DNA from: Kineosporia sp. A_224
Lineage (GTDB): Bacteria; Actinomycetota; Actinomycetes; Actinomycetales; Kineosporiaceae
Reading direction: 5' to 3'
Length of the DNA: 64,000 bases
NCBI RefSeq assembly: GCF_002198655.1
Contig: NZ_MWLN01000199.1
Span: forward strand, 124,001 to 188,000
The notes under the pieces are model-generated. The model saw only the letters and a list, made by a program, of their open reading frames with translations. It was not told where the DNA came from and did not search any database. Positions within the stretch are counted from its first letter, which is position 1; each line of letters begins with the position of its first letter. This document shows, one piece after another, positions 34,475 to 48,030 of the stretch. The translations under genes were made by a program, and so were the position numbers.

Positions 34475-36649
34475 ATGGGTGGGAACGACGCTCGGATCCA
34501 GGCGATCAAGGACGTCGAGGCCTACGTGCCTCCTGCGGTGAGCTTCATGGCCGAGGAGAAGCCGGGCGAGATCTTCGGCGAGAACGTGTTCAGCCGCGCC
34601 GTGATGCAGCAGCGGCTTCCGAAGTCGGTCTTCAAGTCCGTCCTCGCCACGATCGAGCACACCGCGCCGCTCGACCCGCTCGTCGCGGACGCCGTCGCCT
34701 CGGCGATGAAGGACTGGGCGCTCGAGAAGGGCGCCACCCACTACGCGCACGTCTTCTACCCGCTGACCGGCCTCACCGCGGAGAAGCACGACAGCTTCTT
34801 CGAGCCGATCGGGGACGGCGGCGCCATCGCCGAGTTCGCCGGCAAGACGCTCATCCAGGGCGAGCCGGACGCCTCGAGCTTCCCGAACGGCGGCCTGCGC
34901 AACACGTTCGAGGCCCGCGGGTACACCGGCTGGGACGTCACCAGCCCGGCGTACGTGCTCGAGAACCCGAACGGCAACACCCTGTGCATCCCGACGGTCT
35001 TCGTCTCCATGACCGGCGAGGCGCTCGACCACAAGACGCCGCTGCTGCGCTCCCAGCAGGCGATGGCGGACCACGCCGAGCGGATCCTGCGCCTGTTCGG
35101 GCACACTCCCGCGCGCGTCGTGTCGTACTGCGGCCCGGAGCAGGAGTACTTCCTCGTCGACCGGCACTTCGTGCTGGCCCGTCCCGACCTGCTCAACGCC
35201 GGCCGCACCCTCTTCGGTTCCAAGCCGCCCAAGGGCCAGGAGTTCGACGACCACTACTTCGGGGCCATCCCCGAGCGGGTGCTCGGCTTCATGCTCGACA
35301 CCGAGCGCGCCCTGTTCAAGCTCGGTATCCCGGCGAAGACGCGGCACAACGAGGTCGCGCCGGGCCAGTTCGAGATCGCGCCGATGTTCGAGCGCGCGAA
35401 CGTGGCGTCCGACCACCAGCAGCTGCTCATGACGACCTTCAAGTCGATCGCGCGCAAGCACGGCATGGAGTGCCTCTTCCACGAGAAGCCCTTCGCCGGC
35501 GTCAACGGCTCCGGCAAGCACGTGAACTTCTCGATCGGCAACGCGACCGAGGGCAACCTGCTCCTGCCCGGCGACAACCCGCACGACAACGCGCAGTTCC
35601 TCGTGTTCTGCGCCGCCGTCATCCGGGCCGTCCACAAGTACGCCGGCCTGCTCCGCGCGTCCGTCGCGTCGGCGAGCAACGACCACCGGCTCGGCGCGAA
35701 CGAGGCCCCGCCCGCGATCATCTCGATCTTCCTCGGCGACCAGCTCGCCGGCGTCTTCGAGCAGATCGCCCTTGGGGCCGCGACGTCGTCGAAGAGCAAG
35801 GGCCGCCTGACGATCGGCGTCGACACGCTGCCCGTCCTGCCGACCGACCCGGGCGACCGCAACCGGACGAGCCCCTTCGCCTTCACCGGCAACAGGTTCG
35901 AGTTCCGTGCACCCGGTTCGATGCAGACCGTCGCCGGCCCGATGGTCACCCTGAACACGATCATGGCCGAGGCGCTCGACCACATCGCGACGGAGCTCGA
36001 GGCAGCGGTCGCCGCCGGGACCGACTTCAACGCCGCGGTACAGACCGTCCTCACCGAGATCATCAACACCCACGGCGCGGTCGTCTTCAACGGCGACGGC
36101 TACTCGGAGAAGTGGCAGGTCGAGGCTGCCGAGCGCGGGCTGCCGAACCTGCGGACGACGCTCGACGCGCTCCCCGAGCTCGTCTCCCCGGAGGCGATGG
36201 AGCTCTTCGAGAAGTACAAGGTCTTCAACCACCGTGAGATGCACAGCCGCTACGAGATCGGTCTGGAGCACTACACGCTCACGATCGGCGTCGAGGCGCG
36301 CCTCACGCACGAGATCGGCGCGACCGTCGTGCTGCCGGCCGCCGTCCGCTACCAGACCGAGCTGGCCGTCAACGTCGGCGCGCTCAAGGCGGCCGGGGTG
36401 GACGCCGACCTCGCCTCGCTGGAGACGGTGACCGGCCCGCTCGGGGACCTGCGGGCGGCGCTCACGACCCTCGGCGCGGCACTGGCCGCCGACGCGGGGG
36501 AGGAGCCGCTCGAGGAGGCCACGTACGCCCGGGACGTCCTGCTGCCGGCGATGGCCGCCGTCCGGACCGCCGCCGACGCGCTCGAGGGCGTCGTCGCCGA
36601 CGACCTCTGGCCGCTGCCGACGTACCAGGAGATGCTCTACATCCTCTGA
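34475..36649 (+). CDS. glnN: Glutamine synthetase type III
   Basis: A 724-residue GSIII enzyme that makes glutamine from glutamate and ammonia with ATP. GSIII is much longer than type I and here shows the family start [20 protein letters not shown], the unique N-terminal domain ending [20 protein letters not shown], the catalytic blocks [55 protein letters not shown] and [20 protein letters not shown], and the helical C-terminus. The start at 34475 has AGGGAG upstream. GSIII has no adenylylation site and is not a GlnE target; it is typical of Bacteroidetes and cyanobacteria and scattered in actinobacteria, so ancient transfer is possible. A GlnR-like half box precedes it. Confidence 0.95.
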
Positions 36650-37859: not shown

Positions 37860-39284
37860 TCAGATGTCGTAGTACAGCTCGAACTCGTGGGGGTGCGGCC
37901 GCAGGGAGATCGGGAGGATCTCCTGCTGACGCTTGAAGTCGATCCACGTGTCGATGAGGTCCTCGGTGAACACGCCACCCTCGGAGAGGTAGCTGTGGTC
38001 GGCCTCGAGAGCGTCGAGGACGGCGCCGAGCGAGCCGGGGACCTGCGGGATCGAGGCGTGCTCCTCCGGCGGCAGTTCGTAGAGGTCCTTGTCGACCGGT
38101 GCGAGCGGCTCGATCCGGTTCTTGATGCCGTCGATGCCGGCCATGAGCTGGGCGGCGAACGCGAGGTACGGGTTGCTCGACGGGTCGGGCACCCGGAACT
38201 CGATGCGCTTGGCCTTCGGGTTCGAGCCGGTGACCGGAATCCGCACGCAGGCGGAGCGGTTGCGGGCCGAGTAGACCAGGTTGACCGGCGCCTCGTAGCC
38301 CGGCACCAGGCGGCGGTAGCTGTTCACCGTCGGGTTGGTGAAGGCGAGCAGCGACGGGGCGTGGTGCAGGAGGCCGCCGATGTACCAGCGCGCGATGTCG
38401 GACAGGCCGCCGTAGCCGCGCTCGTCGTAGAAGAGCGGCTCGCCGTCCTTCCAGAGCGACTGGTGGCAGTGCATGCCCGAGCCGTTGTCACCGAAGAGCG
38501 GCTTCGGCATGAAGGTCGCCGTCTTGCCGGCCTCCCACGCCACGTTCTTGATGACGTACTTGAAGAGCATGACCTTGTCGGCCGACTTGAGCAGCGTGTC
38601 GAAGCGGTAGTTGATCTCCGCCTGGCCCGCGGTGCCGACCTCGTGGTGGGCGCGCTCGACCTGCAGGCCGAGAGAGTCCAGGGTCTTCGACATCTGGTCG
38701 CGCAGGTCCGCGTAGTGGTCGACCGGCGGGACGGGGAAGTAGCCGCCCTTGTACCGGGTCTTGTAGCCGCGGTTGCCGCCCTCCTCGACGCGCCCGGTGT
38801 TCCAGGCGCCCTCGATGGAGTCGATGTGGTAGTACCCGGCGTTCTGCTTCGTCTCGAAGCGGACGTCGTCGAAGACGTAGAACTCCGCCTCCGGGGCGAA
38901 GAACGCGGTGTCCGCGATGCCCGTCGACTTGAGGTACGCCTCGGCCTTGCGGGCCACCTGGCGCGGGTCGCGGCTGTAGGCCTCGTCCGTGTACGGGTCG
39001 ACGATGCTCATGTTGATGTTGAGCGTCTTCTCCGTGCGGAACGGGTCGATGTAGGCGGTGCCGACGTCCGGGATGAGCTTCATGTCCGACTCGTTGATCG
39101 CCTGGAAGCCACGGATCGACGAACCGTCGAACATCTGGCCCTCGGCGAAGAACGTTGCGTCGACCGACGCGGCCGGCACGTTGAAGTGCTGCATGACCCC
39201 GGGGAGGTCGCAGAACCGCACGTCCACGAACTTGACGTCCTCGTCCTTGATGAACTTGAGGACCTCGTCGCCATTGCTGAACAT
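37860..39284 (-). CDS. glnA1: Glutamine synthetase type I, adenylylatable
   Basis: The main assimilatory glutamine synthetase: 474 residues from ATG 39284 ([20 protein letters not shown]), exactly the size of GlnA1 of other actinobacteria, with GGAGG upstream. Conserved blocks are [68 protein letters not shown] (preceded by FMPKPLFGD), [13 protein letters not shown] and [20 protein letters not shown]. The adenylylation loop [12 protein letters not shown] keeps the target Tyr (about residue 402), so activity should be controlled by GlnE (25326). Transcription is likely controlled by GlnR: a near-perfect box lies at 39390-39427. Confidence 0.97.
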
Positions 39285-39389
39285 CCAACCTCCAGGGCTG
39301 GGGAGCGGAGCGGGCATCGGGCAGGGTTCACCGCGGGCCCGCGTCATCGGGGAGTCCCGTGGAATCGCCCTGGACACTATGGACCAGGG

Positions 39390-40003: not shown

Positions 40004-40046
40004 TACTAGCGCGTATGACCCGTTTTCTGGGTCATACGCGCTAGTA
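40004..40046. repeat. Perfect 18-bp-stem palindrome between convergent genes
   Basis: An 18-nt arm (40004-40021, starting TACTAGCGCG and ending ATGACCC) pairs with no mismatch with 40029-40046 across the 7-nt loop GTTTTCT. The composition is visibly less GC-rich than the surroundings. Its place between the RDD gene and the histidine-kinase gene fits a bidirectional terminator; the perfect long stem and differing composition would also fit a REP-like dispersed palindrome. Confidence 0.7.
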
Positions 40047-40053
40047 GCTCGGG

Positions 40054-41493
40054 TCAGGTGTCGTGGAGGGGGAGGCGGACCTGGAAGCGGGTGTCTCCCG
40101 GCACCGACTCGACGCGCAGGTCGCCGCGGTGCCGCTGGACGACGATCCGGTAGGAGATGTCGAGCCCGAGCCCGGTCCCCTCGCCGACCGGCTTCGTCGT
40201 GAAGAACGGTTCGAAGATCCTGGACCGCAGCTCCGCCGGGACGCCCGGCCCGGTGTCGCCGATCTCGACGAGCACGTGCTCGCCGTCGCGTGCCGTGCGC
40301 ACGGTGAGCGCGCCCTGGCCGCCCATCGCCTGGACGGCGTTCTCGACGAGGTTCGTCCAGACCTGGTTGAGCTCGCCGGGGTAGGCGGGGATCCGGGGCA
40401 GCGTCCGGTCGAGGTCCTTGACGACGGTGACCCCGGGCCGCAGCTTGGCGCCCAGCATGACGAGCGTCGACTTGAGCCCTTCGTGGACGTCGATGTCCTG
40501 GCGCGGCGCCCGGTCCATCTGGGAGTACTGCTTCGCCGCTCCGACGAGCGCCGAGATCCGGCCCGTCGTGTCGTCGATCTCGTTGAGGAGCATCTCCGTC
40601 TCGAGGGTGTACGTCACCCAGCGCAGCCCGCCACCGAGATGGGTCCGGGGCACCGCGGCCGCGACCCGGTCGAGCCAGCCGGTGTCGAGCCCGGCGGCGA
40701 CGAGCGTCGCCGCGAGCTCCCACCCGTTGGCGACCTCGTGCTCGTCGAGCCAGTCGGTCAGCTCGTCCTCGGCGTCGCTCGTCTCGAGCGGCGACAGCTC
40801 GGGCGCCGACGCCAGCCGGGCCACGGCCTCCTCCTGGACGTCGGTGAGCCGGATGAGCGTGTCCGCGTCGAGCTTGCCGTCGGCGAGGCTCGCGAGCTTG
40901 TGCCGCATCGCGGCGAACCGTTCCCGCAGCGTCGCGGTCGCCCGGACGGCGGCCGCGGCCGGGTTGTTCAGCTCGTGCGTGAGCCCCGCGGTGAGCCGGC
41001 CGAGAGAGAGCAGCCGCTCCCGCTGGGCGACGATCTCGTTGCTCGAGCGCATCCCGACGAACAGGCCCTCGAGCAGGTGCATCGCCATCGGGAACCAGGT
41101 GCGGATCTCGACGGCGAACTCGTCGGCGTCCAGCGCGAGCAGCGCCGCGTCGGTGACTGCCTCCATGGAGGCGCTGTACGGCAACGGTTCCGGCGTCCGG
41201 ACGTACGCCTGGGTCGCCCCCGCGTAGGCGCCGCGCTGGCTCGTCCGGATGATCTCGAGCTCGTGGTCCTCGACCCGGCGCCGCATGACGACGGTGCCCT
41301 CGAGCAGCACGAAGAAGCACGTCGCGGGGTCGCCCTGGGTGTAGACGGCCTCCCCCGCCGTCCGGCGCTCGACCCGGCCGTGCGCCGCGAGCCAGCCGAG
41401 CTTGTCGTCGTCCAGCGACTCGAAGAGGAACAGCGTGCGCAGCACGTCGGGGCCGACCCGCTCCGGGCCGGCCGTCGTCCCGTCGACCGTCAC
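40054..41493 (-). CDS. CNB-domain sensor histidine kinase
   Basis: A 479-residue soluble kinase with no transmembrane segment. The N-terminal half is a cyclic-nucleotide-binding (Crp/CNB) domain (AGEAVYTQGDPATCFFVLLE, GTVVMRRRVEDHELEI, GAYAGATQAY), residues about 18-125. The kinase half has the H-box LGRLTAGLTHELNNPAAAA with His173, N-box NLVENAVQAM, G1 box EIGDTGPGVP, F-box IFEPFFTTKP and G2 GEGTGLGLDIS. It should autophosphorylate on His173 and transfer to the response-regulator flavoprotein encoded 4 nt upstream (41498). The signal is probably a small molecule or redox state sensed by the CNB domain. Confidence 0.9.
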   Translation of the reverse strand: MTVDGTTAGPERVGPDVLRTLFLFESLDDDKLGWLAAHGRVERRTAGEAVYTQGDPATCFFVLLEGTVVMRRRVEDHELEIIRTSQRGAYAGATQAYVRTPEPLPYSASMEAVTDAALLALDADEFAVEIRTWFPMAMHLLEGLFVGMRSSNEIVAQRERLLSLGRLTAGLTHELNNPAAAAVRATATLRERFAAMRHKLASLADGKLDADTLIRLTDVQEEAVARLASAPELSPLETSDAEDELTDWLDEHEVANGWELAATLVAAGLDTGWLDRVAAAVPRTHLGGGLRWVTYTLETEMLLNEIDDTTGRISALVGAAKQYSQMDRAPRQDIDVHEGLKSTLVMLGAKLRPGVTVVKDLDRTLPRIPAYPGELNQVWTNLVENAVQAMGGQGALTVRTARDGEHVLVEIGDTGPGVPAELRSRIFEPFFTTKPVGEGTGLGLDISYRIVVQRHRGDLRVESVPGDTRFQVRLPLHDT

Positions 41494-41497
41494 GCGG

Positions 41498-43186
41498 TCA
41501 CCGCCCTTCCAGGTACCGGTGCACGAGGGTCACCGCGAGGGCCCCCTCGCCGACCGCGGACGCCACCCGCTTCACCGACTGCGACCGGACGTCGCCGGCG
41601 ACGAACACCCCGGGCACGCTCGACTCGAGCAGGTACGGGTCGCGGTCCGGCGACCAGCCCGGCGGCGGTGCGCCGTCCCGGACGAGGTCGGGGCCGGTGA
41701 GGACGAAGCCCGCGTCGTCGCGGTGCACGGCATCCGGCAGCCACGCCGTCATCGGCGACGCGCCGATGAACACGAAGACGTGCCCGGTCCGCACCGTCGT
41801 CGAGGTGCCCGTCGCGTCGTCGGCGAGCGTGACCTGCTCGAGGTGGTCCTCGCCGTCCAGCGCGGCGACCCGGGTGCACAGCCGGACCTCGATGTTCGGC
41901 ACGGCCCGCACCTGCTCGATGAGGTAGTGCGACATCGACCGTTCCAGGTCACGCCCGCGGACGACGAGGGTCACCCGCGCGGCGTGCCGGGCGAGGAAGA
42001 CCGCGGCCTGCCCGGCCGAGTTCGCCCCGCCCACGACGACGACGTGCTCGCCCGCGCACGTCGCGGCCTCGGTCGCCGTCGAGCCGTAGTAGACCCCGCT
42101 GCCGACGAAGCGGTCGGCGCCGTCCGCGTCGAGCTGCCGGTACGCGACGCCGGTCGCGAGGATCACCGTGTGCGCGGCGATGCGCGTGCCGTCGTCGAAC
42201 CGGACGACGCGGCGCGGCCCGGTCGCGTCGATGCCGACGGCCGTGCGCGCCGTGAGCACCTCGGCACCGAACTTCACCGCCTGCCGGCGGGCCCGGTCGG
42301 TGAGCTGCCCGCCCGAGACCCCGTCGGGGAAGCCGAGGTAGTTCTCGATCCGCGAGCTCTGCCCGGCCTGCCCGCCGGCGGCCTGGCGCTCGACGAGCAC
42401 CGTGCGCAGCCCCTCGGACGCGCCGTACACCGCGGCGCCGAGGCCGGCCGGGCCGGCCCCGACGATGAGGACGTCGTAGAAGTCCTCGGTCGGCACGGTC
42501 GACAGGCCGACGCTCGTCGCGAGGTCGGCGAGCGTCGGGGCCCGCAGCACCGTGCCGTCGGCGGTCACGACGACCGGCACGTCGTGCGGCGTCGAGTCGC
42601 TCGCGGCGAGCAACCGCGCGCCGTCCGGCTCGTCGGCGGCGTACCAGCGGTACGGGACGGCGTTGCGCGCCAGGAAGTCCCGGACCTCGAAGCTCGGCCG
42701 GGAGAACCGGTGCCCGACGACCTTCGTCACCGTCACGGCGGCCTCACCGCTCGCCGCCCACAGCTCCAGGAGCGTGTCGATGACGGGGTAGAGCTTCTCC
42801 TCCGGGGGCGACCACGGCTTGAGCAGGTAGTGGTCGACGTCCACGTCGTTGATCGCGCGGATCGCGGCGTCGGTGTCGGCGTAGGCGGTGAGCAGCGCGC
42901 GGCGGGCCCGCGGGAACAGGTCCATCGCGGCCTCGAGGAACTCGATGCCGTTCATCTGCGGCATCCGGTAGTCGGCGAGCAGGACGGCGACCGGCTCGCC
43001 GCGCAGCCTGAGCTCCTTGAGCGCGTCGAGGGCCTCTGCCCCGGACGACGCGCGGACGACCCGGTGCCGGTCGCCGTACCGGCGGCGCAGGTCCCGTGCG
43101 ACGGCACGGGAGACGGACGGGTCGTCGTCGACGGTGAGGATGACGGGACGGCGCTCCTGCTCGGGCGCGGGGTCGGGCTCGGTCAC
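41498..43186 (-). CDS. Response regulator fused to thioredoxin-reductase-like flavoprotein
   Basis: A 562-residue fusion. Residues 14-130 form a receiver domain with acidic pocket VDDD (20-22), phospho-acceptor Asp72 (LLADYRMPQMNG) and Lys123 (LLKPW). Residues 150-225 look like a glutaredoxin-like domain without a CxxC (GHRFSRPSFEVRDFLARNAV; HDVPVVVTADGTVL). From 236 a two-dinucleotide-binding reductase follows: FAD motif VLIVGAGPAGLGAAVYG, NADPH motif VVVVGGANSAGQAAVF and the FAD-closing VPGVFVAGDVRSQSVKRVA. The redox CxxC of thioredoxin reductases is absent (STATEAATCAG occupies that place), so it is unlikely to reduce thioredoxin in the classic way. Paired with the histidine kinase 4 nt downstream. 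Confidence 0.9.
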   Translation of the reverse strand: MTEPDPAPEQERRPVILTVDDDPSVSRAVARDLRRRYGDRHRVVRASSGAEALDALKELRLRGEPVAVLLADYRMPQMNGIEFLEAAMDLFPRARRALLTAYADTDAAIRAINDVDVDHYLLKPWSPPEEKLYPVIDTLLELWAASGEAAVTVTKVVGHRFSRPSFEVRDFLARNAVPYRWYAADEPDGARLLAASDSTPHDVPVVVTADGTVLRAPTLADLATSVGLSTVPTEDFYDVLIVGAGPAGLGAAVYGASEGLRTVLVERQAAGGQAGQSSRIENYLGFPDGVSGGQLTDRARRQAVKFGAEVLTARTAVGIDATGPRRVVRFDDGTRIAAHTVILATGVAYRQLDADGADRFVGSGVYYGSTATEAATCAGEHVVVVGGANSAGQAAVFLARHAARVTLVVRGRDLERSMSHYLIEQVRAVPNIEVRLCTRVAALDGEDHLEQVTLADDATGTSTTVRTGHVFVFIGASPMTAWLPDAVHRDDAGFVLTGPDLVRDGAPPPGWSPDRDPYLLESSVPGVFVAGDVRSQSVKRVASAVGEGALAVTLVHRYLEGR

Positions 43187-46710: not shown

Positions 46711-48030
46711 TCAGTGGTACGGCAGGTAGAACGCCTTCTCGAAGTCCGACAGCGTCTCGCCGTCGAGGGTCGACCCGGATGCCTCGAACTTCTCGAGCTC
46801 GGCCCGCTTGACCCCGACGAGGTTCGCGACGAGCTCGGCGCCGACCGCCTCGACGAGCGCGGTGTCGGCCTCGAGCGCGTCGAGCGCCTCGCCGAGGCTC
46901 GTCGGCGCCGTGACGTCGGTGCCGCCGTCCTCGAAGCCGTCGCCGGTGTAGGCGGGCGGCGGCTCGGCCTTCGCCGTCGCACCGAGCCACGCCGCGCGCA
47001 GCACCGCGGCGACGCCGAGGTGCACGTTCATCGAGCCGTCGCCGACCCGGCTCTCGACGCGCATCGCGGTGCCGGCCTCGGCCGGGATCCGGTTGCTCAC
47101 GTTGCGGTGGTCGACGCCCCAGTTCGCCCAGTAGCCCGCGAGCGTGCCCGGCTGCAGGCGGCGGTAGGCGTTGACCGTCGGGGCGCAGAGCGCGATGAGC
47201 GCGCGGTGGTGCTCGCAGAGCCCGGCGACGCTCTGCCGGCCGACCTCGGCGAGGCCGTGCTCGGCGTGCGGGTCGTAGAAGGCGTTGCGCCCGTCGGCGT
47301 CCGCCATCGAGAAGTTCACGTGGAGGCCGGAGCCGGCGACCGTCGGGAACGGCTTGCCGAGGAAGGTGAAGTCGAGCCCGAGCGCGAGGCCCCGCTCCCG
47401 GACCAGCAGCCGGAACAGGAAGGCGTCGTCCGCGACCGCGAGCGCGTCGCCGTACTCGAGGGTGAACTCGAACTGCGACTCGTCGAACTCGACGCTCGCG
47501 GACTCCACCGCGAACCCGCAGCGGTCGGCGGTCTCGAGGACGTCCTCGAGGAAGCCGCTCGGGTCGCCGAGCCGGCCGGTGCCGTAGACCATCGAGCGCG
47601 GGTTGGCGAAGCGCGTCCAGCCGCCCTCGCCGTCGGGTGCGAGGAGGTAGCCCTCGAGCTCGATGCCGACCTTCGCGCGGTGGCCGAGGTCGGCCCAGCC
47701 GGCGACGGCGTTCTTCAGCGCCGTCCTGGCCGAGACCGGGTACGGGGCGCCGTCGATCTCCAGGTCGGCGACGGCGACCGCCGTCCGGTCGTCGTCCCAC
47801 GACGGGTGCAGCGAGTCGGGGTCGACGGTGCCGTGGACGTCGCGCAGCCCGTCGAGCATGTGCGCGCCGGGCGCGGGGATGATGTCGCGGTCGTACGTGA
47901 GGCCGAAGGTCGTCACGCAGAACCCGCTGCCGGCCTCGGCACGGCGGGTCGGCAGGTACTTGCCACGGGCGAGGCCCAGGTGGTCGGGCCACAGCATCCG
48001 CACACGGCGGTAGCTGCTCACGGGGGTCAT
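46711..48030 (-). CDS. Glutamine-synthetase-like gamma-glutamyl ligase
   Basis: A 439-residue member of the glutamine synthetase fold, far from GlnA1/A2. Catalytic blocks remain: VGIELEGYLLAPDG, SVEFDESQFEFTLEYGDALA, LGKPFPTVAGSGLHVNFSMA, VNAYRRLQPGTLAGYWANWG and AMRVESRVGDGSMNVHLGVA. The N-terminus (VRMLWPDHLGLARGKYLPTR) lacks the DGSS motif of true glutamine synthetases, and there is no adenylylation Tyr loop. Such divergent members (GlnA3/GlnA4, PuuA, IpuC-like) gamma-glutamylate amines such as polyamines, ethanolamine or isopropylamine for catabolism. Its place 44 nt behind the NicX/NicD/flavin-reductase genes suggests that here too it acts on an amine or amide intermediate. Confidence 0.85.
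   Translation of the reverse strand: MTPVSSYRRVRMLWPDHLGLARGKYLPTRRAEAGSGFCVTTFGLTYDRDIIPAPGAHMLDGLRDVHGTVDPDSLHPSWDDDRTAVAVADLEIDGAPYPVSARTALKNAVAGWADLGHRAKVGIELEGYLLAPDGEGGWTRFANPRSMVYGTGRLGDPSGFLEDVLETADRCGFAVESASVEFDESQFEFTLEYGDALAVADDAFLFRLLVRERGLALGLDFTFLGKPFPTVAGSGLHVNFSMADADGRNAFYDPHAEHGLAEVGRQSVAGLCEHHRALIALCAPTVNAYRRLQPGTLAGYWANWGVDHRNVSNRIPAEAGTAMRVESRVGDGSMNVHLGVAAVLRAAWLGATAKAEPPPAYTGDGFEDGGTDVTAPTSLGEALDALEADTALVEAVGAELVANLVGVKRAELEKFEASGSTLDGETLSDFEKAFYLPYH

Follow-up and report, generated by a model that had tools for sequence, protein, structure and literature searches.

The stretch of DNA analysed here (the window) comprises 64,000 nt of the Kineosporia sp. A_224 genome (contig NZ_MWLN01000199.1, positions 124,001 to 188,000), and on its minus strand lie two adjoining genes which would together form a two-component system with an enzyme as its output. 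The upstream open reading frame (ORF; 43186-41498, 562 aa, GTG start, TGA stop at 41500-41498) encodes a response regulator fused to a thioredoxin reductase (TrxR)-like flavoprotein, hereafter RR-TrxR, and the downstream ORF (41493-40054, 479 aa, GTG start) encodes a soluble histidine kinase with a sensor of the cyclic nucleotide-binding (CNB) type. The gap between the RR-TrxR stop and the kinase start is 4 nt. A preliminary description of this DNA had reported a kinase and a regulator in two reading frames at this spacing and had taken the regulator output to be a flavoprotein and not a DNA-binding domain; the coordinates and the pairing hold, and the output is indeed enzyme-like. Pfam Pyr_redox_2 covers residues 237-548 of RR-TrxR (1e-32). 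The features of the locus are as follows.

41498..43186, minus strand: response regulator, degenerate glutaredoxin and cysteine-less TrxR-like flavoprotein in one chain (ORF, profiles and full-length homologues of 60-70% identity)
42797..43144, minus strand: REC domain, residues 15-130 (Pfam Response_reg, invariant columns)
42971-42973, minus strand: phosphoacceptor D72 (invariant column)
42503..42733, minus strand: putative degenerate glutaredoxin-fold domain, residues 152-228 (predicted element order; alignment with the same-genome paralogue L143)
42692-42703, minus strand: S162-R-P-S165 replacing the glutaredoxin CxxC (alignment with CSDC of L143)
41504..42481, minus strand: TrxR-like FAD/NAD(P)H module, residues 236-561 (Pfam Pyr_redox_2; Foldseek TrxR/AhpF, E 1e-29)
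42071..42085, minus strand: former redox site, its C-A-T-C replaced by G368-S-T-A-T372 (alignment; CxxC in 0/48 clade members)
42056..42058, minus strand: C377, a single cysteine, invariant in close relatives and variable across the clade
41567..41569, minus strand: R540 (48/48 against 0/8 in CxxC-bearing relatives, which have Gln)
41519..41521, minus strand: H556 (48/48 against 0/8 in CxxC-bearing relatives, which have Arg or Glu)
40054..41493, minus strand: soluble histidine kinase (ORF, Pfam, 4 nt 3' of the RR-TrxR stop)
41113..41361, minus strand: CNB-like sensor, residues 45-127 (Pfam; cassette degenerate, as read across 15 family members)
40975..40977, minus strand: phosphoacceptor H173 in LTHELNNP (invariant or nearly so in an 88-sequence alignment)
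40063..40374, minus strand: HATPase_c with intact N (NLVENAVQAM), G1 (DTGPGV) and G2 (GTGLGL) boxes (Pfam and alignment)
40004..40046, minus strand: perfect 18-bp hairpin, its loop 7 nt long, in the gap that separates the kinase stop from the convergent gene (fold -44.3 kcal/mol, z -8.2)

The architecture of RR-TrxR is not a product of chance, because full-length homologues with 60-70% identity are spread across Actinomycetota. Its receiver (Pfam Response_reg, residues 16-128, 5e-14, 52.7 bits against a cut-off of 30.2) has the acidic pair D20 and D21, the phosphoacceptor D72, T100 and K123, all invariant in the family alignments. On the kinase side Pfam recognised HATPase_c (1e-24, 87 bits) and cNMP_binding at residues 45-127 (4e-12), with HisKA at 164-192 below threshold, and H173 and the ATP-lid motifs were conserved in at least 93% of 88 kinase sequences. 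We examined the pairing of the two genes in 80 named actinobacterial loci, which are the best-scoring of 574 and over-represent close relatives. A kinase 52-65% identical to that of the window lies directly downstream of the regulator in 80/80 of them, and within 180 nt in 78. Kinases of the CNB type also adjoin the regulator in Deinococcus, Caballeronia, Gloeothece and Nostoc sp. C052, and Nostoc edaphicum has a related, receiver-bearing kinase about 2.6 kb off; the kinase pairing is retained by relatives in four phyla. Since the association holds in every named actinobacterial locus and extends to other phyla, it supports the prediction that RR-TrxR and the kinase form a cognate pair. No second full-length kinase of this kind is encoded in the window genome. 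Two related kinases were noticed near one RR-TrxR gene, one on each side, in Deinococcus aetherius and Caballeronia sp. NK8 (L131, L132). The hairpin directly 3' of the kinase is a probable terminator shared by the convergent genes and ending the operon, which therefore probably comprises two genes here.

The reductase module has its nearest NCBIfam family in thioredoxin reductase TIGR01292, at 221.1 bits and hence well below the curated cut-off of 343.45, and its GAGPAG, GGANSAG and AGD motifs are intact. Neither this module nor the glutaredoxin-like segment (150-228) of RR-TrxR contains a CxxC. The window genome also encodes a paralogue (L143, contig G000:C88) which has the same order of glutaredoxin followed by TrxR and retains both dithiol sites, CSDC and CATC, which shows that the loss of the cysteines in RR-TrxR is real and not a misalignment. 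In a tree of 56 reductase modules all the cysteine-less proteins clustered together with 100/100 support, separate from TrxR and from the glutaredoxin-TrxR fusions, and none of the 48 members of this clade carried a CxxC anywhere in the module. Four other residues, Q393, Y421, R540 and H556, are each present in 48/48 members of the clade and in 0/8 CxxC-bearing relatives, where Glu stands at position 393, Gln at 540 and Arg or Glu at 556. The dinucleotide-binding (FAD, NAD(P)) residues G243, G245, G248, G386, G531 and D532 are invariant, the glycines in 48/48. The single well-supported clade, the complete absence of CxxC and the four newly fixed residues point to selection for a changed chemistry at a re-specialised site, and not to decay.

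The loss of CxxC from the reductase, as given in the preliminary description, is thus borne out by the GSTAT found at the CATC site of the paralogue; two of its other statements on RR-TrxR stand in part. It had reported the FAD and NADPH motifs as kept, which is correct for the FAD motif, for GGxNSAG and for R410, whereas the 2'-phosphate motif HRRxxxR is absent; R410 alone is kept, followed by G411 and SMSxYL (VRG..L..SMSxYL), and the cofactor could therefore be NADPH or NADH. It had also described an inserted glutaredoxin-like domain devoid of CxxC. A putative domain of this kind is there, with S162xxS165 in place of the CxxC or CxxS of a glutaredoxin active site, but it is not an insertion, since it lies between REC and the reductase in the order seen in the intact L143 fusion. 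Its homology to glutaredoxin comes by way of the alignment with L143; Pfam gave a sub-threshold match only, with a hand-made family consensus as the query, and in the AlphaFold model (mean pLDDT 79, with low-confidence stretches at 269-291 and 534-542) residues 154-225 follow the beta-alpha-beta-alpha-beta-beta-alpha order expected of a glutaredoxin fold. When the predicted RR-TrxR model was compared with known structures, it resembled flavin-reduced TrxR (5mh4: TM 0.89, 3.0 Å) far more closely than the flavin-oxidised form (5mjk: TM 0.59, 8.3 Å). The flavin-reduced arrangement of TrxR places the nicotinamide at the flavin.

The partner of the flavoprotein, left unnamed in the preliminary description, can be narrowed to a candidate, a UBP-type zinc-finger protein, which in this genome is encoded on another contig. 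In 36/80 of the named loci a gene for such a protein (~115 aa) begins 15-114 nt past the kinase match, and in one further locus it lies just upstream of the regulator, giving 37/80 linked loci; in Tsukamurella and Streptomyces the operon is annotated as 'FAD-dependent oxidoreductase / ATP-binding protein / UBP-type zinc finger'. The gene also adjoins the reductase in the CNB-fused, unassigned-N-terminus and stand-alone branches, and is linked to all deep branches of the clade. Among 297 genomes of the phylum, a count which leaves out five genomes with weak, CxxC-type matches only (three of the five checked by sequence), 48 had both genes, 14 the reductase only, 20 the zinc finger only and 215 neither (Fisher p ~1e-26, with phylogeny and genome size ignored). 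The six Cys and three His of the finger are invariant in 55/55 sequences, including a CC pair unseen in the aligned eukaryotic UBP fingers, and the operon zinc finger shares these six Cys with the bacterial structure 2ida, a hypothetical protein, in a match of 82 residues (E 2e-25). There is no zinc-finger gene in the window; the operon-type stand-alone protein is encoded in trans (G000:C71:7515-7712, 62% over 115 aa). This unlinked gene lies ~400 nt from another TrxR-like flavoprotein, one with CPYC (L141, 2411-2755 and 3163-4200). A second bacterial setting of the domain was noticed in the same genome, where a UBP-type zinc finger forms the end of a Na+/H+ antiporter-like protein (L142 881-3208, G000:C140). 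The idea that the finger reads a conserved tail of the reductase was dropped, as the C-terminal tails past HxYL are variable.

Across the cysteine-less clade the N-terminus is either a receiver, a receiver-like or unassigned region lacking a Pfam match, a CNB domain, or a region with no recognised sensor. In one sub-branch (L144, L145, L146, L154, L155, L156, L160) the N-terminus aligns with the receiver and was unrecognised by Pfam in the members scanned; it is possibly a pseudo-receiver. The CNB-fused and stand-alone members carry no other output domain, and some exist without any kinase, which points to the reductase as the effector. In the CNB-TrxR fusions the CNB signal would act on the reductase itself, and so a CNB-like sensor appears to control one type of reductase in two ways, by direct fusion or, with the CNB domain on the kinase, by a phosphorelay. 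The cyclic-nucleotide-type sensor of the preliminary description is confirmed as a cNMP_binding domain, but a true cyclic nucleotide sensor is not supported, since the phosphate-binding cassette, of consensus GE(x)n R(S/T)A, is degenerate in this kinase and in its family; the cassette Arg is missing from the CNB-TrxR fusions too. With the cassette degenerate in both, cAMP or cGMP is unsupported as the kinase signal and unlikely as the ligand.

The CNB-fused branch also offers a physiological context. On plasmids of Rhodococcus, Nocardia and Streptomyces the genes for the zinc finger and CNB-TrxR end chaperone operons with dnaJ, cbpM, clpB and trxA (L137, L169, L170, L172; dnaK and grpE in L137 only), and in Paraburkholderia the neighbours of a stand-alone member include Clp and Hsp20 genes, which suggests a role of the family in protein-folding stress. 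In two of the plasmid operons a DUF1931 gene follows the zinc finger and CNB-TrxR.

Taking together the pairing, the phosphorelay residues, the double loss of CxxC, the clade-wide invariants and the zinc-finger linkage, all of which are present in the sequences themselves, we propose that the locus encodes a two-component system with an enzyme output, a signal-gated NAD(P)H-flavin reductase that dispenses with thiol chemistry and works with the zinc-finger protein, and we hold the chances of this to be about even. The soluble kinase would sense a cytoplasmic signal, probably other than cAMP or cGMP, through its CNB-like domain, autophosphorylate on H173 and serve as phosphodonor to D72 of RR-TrxR. 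Phosphorylation of D72 may then shift the arrangement of the regulator domains and so start or stop the passage of hydride from NAD(P)H to FAD; such a gating of NAD(P)H oxidation, which the preliminary description had also considered, is our best inference. As both dithiol relays are gone, the flavin could not reduce thioredoxin in the classical manner, and electrons would go directly from the flavin to a non-thiol acceptor, the best candidate for which, or for an adaptor bringing it, is the zinc-finger protein supplied in trans. The CNB-fused branches would skip the phosphorelay, and because they sit in chaperone/ClpB operons, the family in general probably carries out a stress-gated redox reaction tied to protein quality control. 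A wider proposition, that a TrxR-derived flavoprotein passing NAD(P)H electrons to or through a UBP-type zinc finger, controlled by a phosphorelay or a CNB domain and tied to protein quality control, constitutes an unrecognised enzyme class, is tentative and somewhat doubtful.

Several points weigh against this proposal. It is the CNB-fused branch that has the heat-shock context, the neighbours of the receiver-bearing branch are varied, and those of the pair in the window (glutamine synthetases, a helicase) are unrelated, so that a stress role for the system of the window is only suggested. The co-occurrence of reductase and zinc finger is uncorrected, the finger is missing in cis from about half of the loci and is absent from 14/62 genomes with the module, and so it is either not strictly required or has been lost from draft assemblies. 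Phosphotransfer, gating, direct flavin chemistry, the identity of the acceptor and the stress role are moreover steps which we infer.

The module could alternatively be a signal-gated NAD(P)H oxidase, in which the reduced flavin reacts with O2, or with a quinone or small molecule, and phosphorylation triggers H2O2 production or disposal of NAD(P)H. The absence of CxxC in 48/48 members and the existence of single-polypeptide members with no obvious partner gene would agree with such an activity, and a positive R540, fixed at a position which we take to lie near the flavin in TrxR and where TrxR has Gln, could tune the reactivity of the flavin; the recurrent zinc-finger linkage, however, argues for a protein partner, and no peroxide-handling genes were shown nearby, and we regard an oxidase as rather unlikely. 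Loss of both catalytic dithiols and the altered 2'-phosphate motif would agree with a pseudoenzyme which does not turn over, and which binds FAD and NAD(P)H as a sensor of redox or pyridine-nucleotide state or serves as a scaffold whose phosphorylation controls zinc-finger binding. This we consider less probable again, as 48 sequences from several phyla share invariant FAD and NAD(P)H dinucleotide motifs along with several invariant residues of the putative active site, which exceeds the needs of a scaffold, and the CNB-fused members carry no other output domain.

Thiol chemistry might also survive in a relocated or outsourced form, with RR-TrxR acting as a disulfide reductase that uses either C377 or cysteines on a partner protein, such as the CC pair of the zinc finger. 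The preliminary description had named normal thioredoxin reduction through cysteines elsewhere as an outcome that would overturn its reading, and C377, near the old site, is such a cysteine; it is conserved in 40/41 close relatives but in only 33/48 members of the cysteine-less clade, the remaining 15 having Met, Val, Leu, Ile, Thr or others, with RR-type proteins of Deinococcus and of further organisms among them. As a universal relocated active site C377 was therefore ruled out. The invariance of the six zinc-finger cysteines and the presence, in actinobacterial heat-shock operons, of a thioredoxin gene beside those for the zinc finger and CNB-TrxR would suit a thiol-based reaction, but the finger cysteines are expected to be zinc ligands, and we place this explanation at a low probability, below that of a pseudoenzyme. 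It is very improbable that the flavoprotein is an input, sensing NAD(P)H or redox state and reporting to the kinase, which would act on other regulators; the constant pairing of kinase and regulator would allow it, yet in the CNB-TrxR and stand-alone members that have no kinase the module is the terminal effector.

Among known proteins the TrxB/AhpF core (TIGR01292, PF07992) includes the best PDB relatives of RR-TrxR by sequence and fold, and shares with it the FAD GxGxxG, GGxNSA and AGD motifs; RR-TrxR differs in lacking CxxC, in having R-G...SMSxYL for HRRxxxR, and in its fixed R540 and H556. Unlike RR-TrxR, the L143 fusion has neither REC nor kinase, and it groups with TrxR outside the cysteine-less clade. 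Proteins that NCBI names CNB-domain-containing thioredoxin-disulfide reductase belong to the same clade and show the same zinc-finger linkage, but carry the sensor on the reductase itself, with no phosphorelay, and lie in chaperone operons on several actinobacterial plasmids. FNR-type reductases match the window reductase much more weakly. TrxR-like ferredoxin-NADP reductases and the cyanobacterial DDOR and FFTR are TrxR-fold flavoproteins with a changed partner or donor (PMC9025218); in DDOR and FFTR the CxxC is retained and the NADPH site has been lost, the opposite of what is seen here. The fusion of REC with thioredoxin reductase is already in print as a 'Mycobacterium-like combination', found in bacteria and Heimdallarchaeota (Galperin et al. 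2018, PMC5847659), and both it and the CNB fusion have product names at NCBI, in agreement with the remark in the preliminary description that the combination had been seen before. The architecture is the same, and the passages of that paper on REC-TrxR make no mention of the cysteine loss, the kinase type or the zinc-finger partner. No study of the cysteine loss, of the zinc-finger partner or of any function of the system was found in the open-access literature searched, and the system around REC-TrxR appears to be undescribed.

Most response regulators act on DNA, second messengers or other proteins. A regulator that directly switches an NAD(P)H-dependent flavoenzyme would, if the proposal is true, connect signalling to electron flow in one step. 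The family is common, being present in 62/297 sampled genomes of the phylum and in other phyla, and its usual annotation as 'FAD-dependent oxidoreductase' or 'thioredoxin-disulfide reductase' is misleading given the missing cysteines; the zinc-finger partner and the chaperone-operon architecture open direct tests of its function.

The window also holds, within 14 kb, three glutamine-synthetase-like genes that differ in type, at 34475-36649 (plus strand), 37860-39377 (minus strand) and 46711-48030 (minus strand).

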